Of a DNA stretch of 64,000 bases, positions 16,401 through 19,400 are shown piece after piece (position 1 is the stretch's first letter; the number at the start of each line of letters is the position of its first letter). Location of the stretch: contig NC_088654.1 of NCBI RefSeq assembly GCF_964019385.1, positions 26,387,124 through 26,451,123 on the forward strand. Direction: 5' to 3'. Position numbers and translations under genes: made by a program. Source of the DNA: Sycon ciliatum (Eukaryota > Porifera > Calcarea > Leucosolenida > Sycettidae). The notes under the pieces are model-generated. The model made no database searches and was not told the DNA's origin. It was given only the letters and a program-made list of their open reading frames with translations.

Positions 16401-19400
16401 GAGTGTGTTCATTGTTTGCCAGGCGCTGGAGCGCAGCCAATGTGACATGGAGCTCAGTTTTAATCTGGTAAGTTGGTGTACAGAGCACTTTCTAAGTCAA
16501 CACACACACACACACACACACACACACACACACACACACCCTCATGCACACACACACACACATACACATTCACAAACACACACACACACACACACACATG
16601 GGCACCCCCCCCCCCCCACACATACACAAACACACACACACACATACATATACCCACACTTTCTCTGTCCTTCAGTGACTCATTGTATGCCCATTGTGCT
16701 CTGCATTATGTTGGAGCATATCAGCAATATAAAGCATGTGCATCTTATCGTAGTCTAGTAAAGACAATTAAATCCCGGTGTGCTTTCTTTTCCGCCCCAC
16801 ATGACGTGACTCATCACCCAAAAAGTAATGACAACTCTCCTTACATCGTGTGTCCCTTGTGTTGCTCTTCTCCTCACATACACTGTGTAGGCATTAGGCA
16901 GCTCTCTCACCCTTCCCAACCAAGAAGCCAACAACAACCTCTTCTTCGTGGCCAGAGTATTCGCCACGACAGTCTCTGAGTTCTCAAACAGCCATGGTAA
17001 GAAGAAGCAAAGGCTACCATCAGCACAGTCTGGCCAATATCTATTTTGAAAGATTAGAAATACTCTCTCCATGGTCTCTTTGAGACACAGCCACGTTTGG
17101 CCACACTCTTGATTTACTTGTGTGCAATACTGTCTTGTATTCAAGCATGTCCCCTGAGGAAGCCTGCTTTTCAAATATGGATAAGTGGTCTGTGTGTATA
17201 GTGGATGTGTTTGTTGTTTACAAAGCCATACCAGGTTTGAGTACACGCCCAACTGGAGTTAAAGCTTAGCTATGAGGTTAATGGCAATGATGTGTGTATG
17301 TGTGCGTGTGTGTGTATGTGTGTGTGTGTGTGTGTGTGTGTGTGTGCGTGTGTGTGTGTGTGTGTGTGTGTGTGTGTGTGTGCGTGTGCGTGTGCGTGCG
17401 CATGTGCACGTGTATTTGTGTGCATGTGCATGCGCCTGCATGTATGTGTGCGTGTGTGTGTTCGTGCTTCGACCATGTACGTATCTGCACCCAGTCCTCG
17501 CTGGGGGTGCTGCCAGGAACATCACAGTCAGGCATATAGCAGTGGACCACCATGCTGCTATGGAGATTACCTGGATAGCACCTGATCCATGTAAGATTGA
17601 TGAGAGTGAAAGCTTTGTGAAGTGGCTAAAATAGTCGTTGTTCAGGAGTGATCTTTCGGTATAGATAGCGGCTCATTAAAGGGGAAGTATACCCTAAAAT
17701 CAAATTTTCACCAGTTGTAGTCTTCTGGGTGCTGAGTCGAATGGTCTTGGTCCGAGGAAGCTGCGACGCTCCCTTCTTACTTGAATTCCAATCGAACTCG
17801 CGCACTTCAACCGAAACTGGGTGACTGCGCCCTACAAGATGGGGATTTGTATGCAAAATGTCACTAAAAGCGCCATTTCGTTCTTATAAAAGCACGGATG
17901 ACCGCGATTGGCCCATATGTTGTAGTCTTTTGGACGCTGAGTCGACTGGTTTTGGTCCGAAAAGGCTGCGATGCAGCGTTCCTCCTTTATTCCCAATCGA
18001 ACATGGTTGAACAAGCGGTCACGTGCTCCTGGGTGCCCAAATCACCTGGTCACCGCGCCAGCAGATGACAACTTACTTTCACACCAAGGTTCAACTCGAG
18101 TTCAACTCGAGTGACAGGACTGCACCCAAAAAAGGTCAAACAGGCTAGTAAGTTGTACCCTGCAGGCACGGTGACCAGGTGACTGGTGTACGCAGGAGCA
18201 CGTGACCGCTTGTTCAACCATGTTCGATTGGGAATAAAGGAGGAACGCTGCATCGCAGCCTTTTCGGACCAAAACCAGTCGACTCAGCGTCCAAAAGACT
18301 ACAACATATGGGTCAATCGCGGTCATCCGTGCTTTTATAAGAACGAAATGGCGCTTTTAGTGACATTTTGCATACAAATCCCCATCTTGTAGGGCGCAGT
18401 CACCCAGTTTCGGTGGAAGTGCGTGAGTTCGATTGGGAATAAAGGGGGAAGGGAGCGTCTCAGCTTCCTCGGACCAAGACCATTCGACTCAGCACCCCGA
18501 AGACTACAACTGGTGAAAAATTGATTTTAGGGTATACTTCCCCTTTCAACTTGAAAGTATACCAGTGGATATCTTTCAAGAAGATGTTGAAGAGCCTGAA
18601 GTTTGTCCTTTATCTCAGTGCTATAGTTCATTAAACAAGTAAACTTACTTGCTATCAAGATACATATGGCAAAGAAATGATATTCTTACATGACACGTGA
18701 TCGTTGCCGGGGCCATGGCCAATAGGCGATCTTCCCGCCACGGGCATAATCAGGCCATCAGGACCGTTTGACGTCATTTCGGGAGTTTCAGGACCGTTTG
18801 ACGTCATTTCGGGAGTGTTAGGACCGTTTGACGTCATCTCGGGAATAATTTTTCGACCTTTCGACCTTTGACCTTCCCTAATATGTTGCTTCGCGCTGTA
18901 AGAAATCAAATCAAGCACGCTCTGTCTGTCATGAGCGTGCTTGATTACATACATCTGAGCAAAGCCACGCACCATTATATCCTCACAATCATTATTATAT
19001 TGTTCTCAACACTTAATAATAATAATAATAATAATATGAAACTCGGATGTTGAGCCATAAATAAATGTAGAAGAGAAAAGGACATATGGATACGAGTTGA
19101 AGCTAGGTGTCAGGACGTCGAATGTTTCAGTACTCTGTCATTTTTGTGCCTAGTTATTGCACTTTCTGACTGTATAAAGTATCATGTTACAGTGATGGAG
19201 AGTTACTCTTAACTCGTATCCATATGTCCTTTTCTCTTCTACATTTATTTATGGCTCAACATCCGAGTTTCATATTGCACACCTGATGAGCCGTCACGAA
19301 CCATACGGCGAAACGTACGTCGTGTGAAACAACTTGTTTTATAGTCAACTAGTCCATCACAATGTCATGCATGAGGAGTACTGTAGGAGTTTGGCTTTCG

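Follow-up and report, generated by a model that had tools for sequence, protein, structure and literature searches.

A retrozyme-like family with a 591-nt unit and a Penelope-type two-site insertion pattern in the Sycon ciliatum genome

The stretch of Sycon ciliatum DNA analyzed here (64,000 nt, hereafter the window) contains a type I hammerhead ribozyme motif within an intron of an RTK gene, and this motif is one unit of an element that recurs in the genome as tandem arrays. As judged from its copies, the element is a retrozyme-like family with an unusual unit size and an insertion pattern of the two-site, Penelope type, which bears on how animal retrozymes and Penelope-like elements (PLEs) move. 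It is probable that we are dealing with a retrozyme with a 591-nt unit whose ribozyme-made circles are inserted by a Penelope-type RT/endonuclease supplied in trans, through two-site priming on both target strands. We hold with somewhat less assurance, while still favoring it, the more specific reading that each insertion consists of two cDNAs, one for each target strand and each begun at a different RNA start site, and that both derive from a single 591-nt circle copied repeatedly.

The features of the window to which the text refers are listed below. Unit numbering runs from q1 to q591 and starts at 19096, which places the hammerhead at q183-231 and the predicted cleavage at q226/227.

19278-19326 (+): type I hammerhead ribozyme motif, predicted cleavage 19321/19322 (from the descriptor, the permissive Rfam search and the genome copies)
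19267-19277 (+): possible outer stem I strand GTTT at 19267-19270, pairing with 19327-19330, followed by a 7-nt bulge CATATTG (from the listed base pairs)
19096-19686 (+): full 591-nt monomer q1-q591, hammerhead at q183-231 (from the 591-bp period of the genomic arrays)
19687-19834 (+): second, partial monomer q1-148, its right outer end at start site 1 (from sequence comparison)
19033-19098 (-): short left arm q116-181, its outer end at start site 2, sharing 3 nt with the right arm
19244-19276 (+): "tail" that separates start site 1 (19243) from start site 2 (19271-19276) (from the outer ends of 22 insertions)
19015-19036 (no strand): (AAT)n target DNA of the left flank, with an uncertainty of a few nt in its border
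19835-19852 (no strand): (AAT)n target DNA of the right flank
15733-15959 (-): older fragment of this family, one-armed and flanked by ATT repeats, with a left end (q57) that coincides with neither site
35275-35323 (+): older decayed fragment (88%), its right end at start site 2

The initial annotation had described a hammerhead with a complete invariant core and three paired stems, and the sequence at 19278-19326 (+) bears this out. Stem I is formed by CACAC and GTGTG and stem II by GCCGT and ACGGC with a 10-nt loop, and the core consists of CTGATGA, GAA, A-CG-TA-CG-T (a 3-bp stem III with a 2-nt loop) and C17. These are the features by which type I is recognized (RF00163), namely the invariant core and three stems of which stem I is open, and the base-pair listing also allows a GTTT/AAAC outer stem with the 7-nt bulge CATATTG to be drawn beside the motif. 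A strict descriptor, which required the core CTGANGA/GAAA, base pairing in all three stems and H17, gave four matches in the 64-kb window including this one, compared with a total of three when the first 51.8 kb was dinucleotide-shuffled 300 times. The Rfam Hammerhead_1 model matched 19277-19327 in the permissive search only, with 26.8 bits (E of 4e-4 for 1 kb and 0.021 for 51.8 kb), and did not reach the gathering score of 34 bits. The initial annotation had taken a covariance score below threshold as speaking against the motif, and on that point the result goes against it. The exact 39-nt core is nevertheless present in 1034 copies in the genome (499 forward, 535 reverse), while a reversed control pattern of the same core has none genome-wide. 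These copies outweigh the low score, and we regard the motif as confirmed at the level of sequence and predicted structure. The minimum free-energy fold of the motif segment is not the hammerhead, and the hammerhead fold, when forced, is less favorable by 5.9 kcal/mol in the motif alone and by 7-11 kcal/mol in longer contexts.

The window holds other hammerhead-like sequences. Four motifs, at 2974-3004 (+), 8630-8669 (+), 32563-32594 (-) and 33213-33245 (-), have a stem I that pairs and a stem II with a U.U at its base; the strict descriptor accepts three of them and rejects the one at 8630. The stretches 8624-8711 and 32522-32600 have in common only the ribozyme and about 40 nt ending in TTCTGTTCTGTA. 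A further sequence at 5880-5923 (-), with stem I missing or bulged, scores 28.8 bits against the 48.5 required for Rfam type III, and a relic at 50245-50290 (-) (22.7 bits) resembles a second hammerhead family of the form CTGAYGAGTCC..GGACGAAACAGTTCTGTC (L024-L044). Genome-wide, 4 of the 21 Rfam hammerhead matches were above the cut-off, and the 591-nt family was not among the 21. Two scans of viral contigs found no hammerhead patterns. Six pattern matches in other genome contigs were rejected, as they represent one conserved haloarchaeal stretch whose flanks and inserts, viewed by eye, have no hammerhead pairing.

The RTK gene lies on the + strand, with an internally duplicated ectodomain, in the 13.0-38.5 kb part of the window. 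Its coding-like stretches form matching pairs: those near 13.3, 16.2, 17.5 and 22.8 kb correspond to those near 25.4, 27.6, 29.2 and 32.1 kb, and the one at 20434-20511 matches 29714-29827. Kinase pieces were found by Pfam at about 34.8-37.6 kb, with a further kinase-like stretch near 38.4 kb noted by eye, and the kinase is 33-45% identical to the 120 matches listed. Since coding-like stretches lie near both 17.5 kb and 20.43 kb, the motif sits inside an intron of about 17.6-20.4 kb in the sense orientation, which agrees with its earlier placement on the sense strand of an RTK intron. The same intron holds a fold-back element at 17678-18546 with 400-nt arms that are 95% complementary, and translations akin to those of this element recur by eye at 43.5-44.6 kb.

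The copy in the window is short. Its left arm has 66 nt and its right arm 739 nt, and it contains one hammerhead. The second unit of 148 nt (19687-19834) is identical to the first at 147 of 148 positions, and the hammerhead falls outside this repeated part, unlike the minimal hammerhead of PLEs, which lies inside the pseudo-LTR. Pfam scans of 10 window ORFs and of 60 more, hand-chosen from the 194 that passed a length and complexity filter, detected no retroelement domains. Taken alone, the copy, which has a pair of direct repeats plus a tail and an inverted arm, resembles an Adineta Penelope insertion (PMC3846280).

The larger structure of the element becomes apparent when the whole assembly (538 Mb, 313 contigs) is considered. 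A 190-nt query around the motif matched 41 genomic places, many of them at exact 591-bp steps on contig C3, where arrays of both orientations are adjacent. These tandem 591-bp arrays reach up to 13 full identical monomers in one arm, each with a type I hammerhead, as is characteristic of metazoan retrozymes. Among the matches listed the unit spacing is 591, 592 or 593, constant within most arrays and differing between loci. One array contains a 596-nt unit among 592-nt units owing to a longer T run, which is readable as slippage and which we count against the preferred explanation. The initial annotation had suggested that the motif derives from a retrozyme-like element, and this gains support from its being one unit of such a tandem-array element.

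The unit itself is non-coding, low in GC and highly self-paired, again as in metazoan retrozymes. The longest stop-free frame of the circle is 97 aa, so that the RT and GIY-YIG reading frame typical of PLEs is absent from the monomer, and GC is 43%. When the window unit is rotated to the cleavage site, its circular fold has a z of -4.7 and none of 100 shuffles is as stable; the hammerhead is not formed in the free-energy fold of the predicted circle, which also counts against our explanation. The monomer length of 591-593 nt in most arrays is outside the size of about 170-400 nt that is described, though not required, for retrozymes in PMC7229834.

The 39-nt core is exact in 1034 of its 1313 copies within two mismatches (79%), compared with 1289 of 2711 copies (48%) for a segment of equal length at q481-519, a comparison made with a single control segment and with copies that are not independent. 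This is modest evidence, and it suggests that the copies with an intact ribozyme are those that move. The 49-nt hammerhead is identical in 75 of 76 copies from 29 loci, which were themselves picked by hammerhead or identity, and there is little variation in the hairpin before site 1 or in a duplicated RNA module. The two diverged copies of this module lie at 19412-19473 and 19594-19657 within the unit, and their hairpins CCACCCAAGTTGGGTGG and CCTTCCAAGTTGGAAGG both pair, with outer letters that differ on both sides. One array with 592-bp spacing (G000:C1:58980209-58984268) has seven minus-strand copies and one plus-strand copy of the control segment; it is missing among the exact-core matches listed, so its ribozyme, if present, differs.

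To describe how insertions end, we sampled nine stretches around the 41 places and 20 of the 56 loci, all on C1, that were grouped by hand from the exact-core matches listed. Because these loci were picked by identity or by an exact hammerhead core, young copies are over-represented. Script-joined matches gave 43 clusters in 29 sequences, the window included, and since clusters were split where a minus arm follows a plus arm, tail-to-tail neighbors count as two insertions. Two arms placed head-to-head (left arm minus, right arm plus) were found in 32 of the 43, and 11 were one-armed. In 22 clusters both outer ends fall at a start site: 12 have site 2 on the left and site 1 on the right, 10 have the reverse, and none has the same site twice. 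Under equal and independent site choice the chance of this is 0.5^22 = 2.4e-7, with end windows (q143-158 for site 1, q171-182 for site 2) that were set after the first ends had been seen. In the remaining 10 of the 32 two-armed clusters one end or both lie outside these sites; together with the 11 one-armed clusters they are counted against the preferred explanation.

The two start sites are about 30 nt apart, just upstream of the ribozyme, while the inner junctions between the arms are scattered across the unit. Insertions that have no full monomer, such as L049 and L054, are also two-armed. Repeats of the (ATT)3 type are found in both flanks of 18 of the 22 insertions, compared with 32 of 5000 points taken as controls from these loci; among the four insertions lacking such flanks, L021 has a 12-nt duplication, GAAATAAATACA, seen by eye. 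The two-armed, inverted layout with a tail and an AT-rich target, which is a trait of PLEs, is thus found in 22 of 43 clusters, those in which both ends are resolved. A pattern search of the first 31.5 Mb of C1 returned 49 distinct site-2 ends in AT-rich DNA, and only three left-minus/right-plus site-2 pairs within 15 kb were found among them. Two of the three were read: one is two known insertions (L048), and the other consists of separate pieces, one of which is a short old insertion (73-76% identity) with ends q145 and q175. The third pair is C1:2247739/2253275.

The variants within insertions carry information on the template. For this analysis 26 insertions were named by hand (25 from the fetched loci and the window copy), some with ends that are not resolved, and positions q140-185 and segment edges were omitted. 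At least two monomers cover each of 124 variants, of which 94 occur in every monomer, 27 in one and 3 in some. For variants shared with other insertions these numbers are 80, 3 (in one) and 1 (in some), and for the 40 private variants they are 14 in all, 24 in one and 2 in some. This is as if one circular template had been copied repeatedly, an all-or-one pattern being what such copying predicts, since early changes would be found in all units and later ones in single units. Counting shared and private variants together, 71 occur in every monomer of both arms, which are opposite in orientation. Another 26 that are covered in both arms are confined to one arm and count against the explanation, and gene conversion could be an alternative way of making monomers alike.

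An enzyme of the type required could come from the same genome. GIY-YIG domains (PF01541) occur at 13 genomic places. Two of the loci, L065 and L066, hold PLEs that combine an open frame (807 and 749 aa) and a YIDD motif with inverted arms and a minimal hammerhead. The L065 frame has GIY-YIG alone in Pfam, just above the cut-off, and no PDB match; its homologues carry PF28514, PF26215 and often PF00078. The ends of these PLEs, read by eye, are at two sites 39 nt apart. L065 has its left end at site 2 and its right end at site 1, and L066 has the opposite arrangement, as read on either side of the 599 nt between L066 and L068. Among the best 40 candidates, the insertions C1:50116769/50116965 and C1:67052128/67052202 have ends q168/q131 and q132/q167, so that all four readable PLE insertions have one end per site. 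One pair on C14 in that group has ends q168 and q110, and no site 2/site 2 pairs were found among the 40. The PLE at L070 has an end at site 2 that lies within an ATT repeat.

The start regions of the two elements share a limited likeness. The sequence before site 1 is TTCTCTTCGA in the PLE and TTCTCTTCTACA in the retrozyme, with an 8-mer, TTCTCTTC, in common; an equally long word at a similar offset was seen in 199 of 20000 shuffles, and a gapped 22-column likeness near the hammerhead in 7 of 500. This likeness is short, and it is counted against the preferred explanation, as is the position of the hammerhead, which is upstream of both start sites in the PLE and downstream of both in the retrozyme. 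In the left flanks of L015 and L018 we also noted that ACTACTTCG precedes the ATT repeat and resembles the PLE site-2 end CTACTTCGTT; ATT repeats next to the ends of PLEs may be places of retrozyme insertion.

The sampled copies have a two-armed layout, two end sites, AT-rich targets and a uniform template, and PLEs of the same genome share the layout. From these we infer a series of steps. Multimeric transcripts would be cut into 591-nt units by the hammerhead and then closed into circles. A Penelope-type RT/endonuclease, for which the autonomous PLEs of the genome are candidate helpers in trans, would cut both strands of an AT-rich target. One cDNA would be primed from each target strand, at two fixed RNA start sites that lie upstream of the ribozyme, about 30 nt from each other, and the RNA circle would be copied repeatedly by rolling-circle reverse transcription. 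The two cDNAs would then be joined at a variable inner point, as the structure of the copies suggests, leaving two head-to-head arms with one start site each, of which the window copy would be a short product.

Other origins have to be weighed against this one. The window copy by itself, with direct repeats at 19096-19243 and 19687-19834, an inverted 5' piece and a tail of about 30 nt, fits a deletion derivative of an ordinary PLE that has direct pseudo-LTRs, has lost its ORF and is copied from linear RNA, the hammerhead being incidental. This was our first reading, and it was set aside on seeing that up to 13 monomers of 591 nt follow one another in the genomic arrays. The hammerhead is also not within the repeated 148 nt, and the 14 of 40 private variants fixed in all monomers would be hard to obtain from linear multimers because an active hammerhead would cut them, so that we consider such a derivative unlikely. 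The long and nearly identical arrays could instead be satellite DNA, amplified and homogenized at the DNA level by unequal crossing-over and gene conversion after simple monomer insertion. This is very improbable given the 71 variants found throughout both opposed arms, the 22 resolved insertions that end on two sites while their inner junctions are scattered, and the two-armed form of L049 and L054, which have no full monomer.

A LINE-type enzyme, in place of a PLE one, could also move the retrozyme, as LINEs have been named possible helpers (PMC7229834) and one insertion (L021, by eye) has a 12-bp target duplication. Two internal start sites, inverted arms and an optional tail of 30-40 nt are PLE traits (PMC3846280, PMC11167929), and the two-site layout is present in this genome's own PLE, which together make a LINE quite unlikely as the source. 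Finally, the ribozyme may have been retained in the intron for regulating the RTK pre-mRNA, in keeping with its sense orientation there and with the intronic hammerheads conserved in amniotes (PMC6155905). We find this extremely improbable, since the copy appears young, its two partial units agreeing at 147 of 148 positions, and its core is one among 1034 exact copies.

The retrozyme reading can be compared with what is published on related systems. The present element agrees with the metazoan non-LTR retrozymes described in PMC7229834 in its hammerhead of type I and in its tandem monomers, which are non-coding, strongly self-paired and below 50% in GC; the units of those retrozymes are about 170-400 nt whereas this one is 591 nt, and two head-to-head arms with two fixed ends are not among the features given in the available text of that paper. 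With the PLEs of Adineta vaga (PMC3846280) and with PAc of Anolis (PMC11167929) it shares two start sites, an AT-rich or ATT target, partial tandem units with an inverted arm at the opposite end, and a tail whose length is about 30 nt. A TATAAA hexamer in the repeat is also common to them, while a stricter 7-mer was sought in the unit and not found. It differs from PLEs in having no RT/endonuclease ORF, a hammerhead downstream of both sites and multi-unit non-coding arrays. Plant LTR retrozymes resemble it in having a hammerhead, a proposed circle-based life cycle and circles of 600-800 nt, and differ in their type III hammerhead, LTRs and 4-bp duplications, the present motif being type I (PMC4918200, PMC7229834).

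PLEs have been proposed as the helpers of retrozymes, and RtcB-type ligation has been published for other retrozymes (both PMC7229834), while the movement of animal retrozymes and the circle as a template have so far been a proposal (PMC7229834, PMC11722881). If our explanation is true, the copies would provide genomic evidence that circles template animal retrozymes and that PLEs move them, as they appear to record both steps in DNA, the one as variants fixed across monomers and the other as ends at two sites. A rule of one start site per strand would also explain the optional tail and the inverted arms of PLEs. PAc is described as cutting and extending both strands, starting at two adjacent internal sites and preferring ATT (PMC11167929), and since that paper saw no difference in start site between the strands, a one-site-per-strand rule would be new. 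The titles and abstract openings we surveyed in the open literature contained no earlier report that we recognized of one site per end, and we found no paper there on a Sycon hammerhead ribozyme.

Two further features of the window lie apart from the element. A tRNA-like match at 46679-46750 (+) scores 30.7 bits against an Rfam cut-off of 29, and the stretch 51894-64000 is a 27-bp satellite of about 448 copies that continues past the window end.
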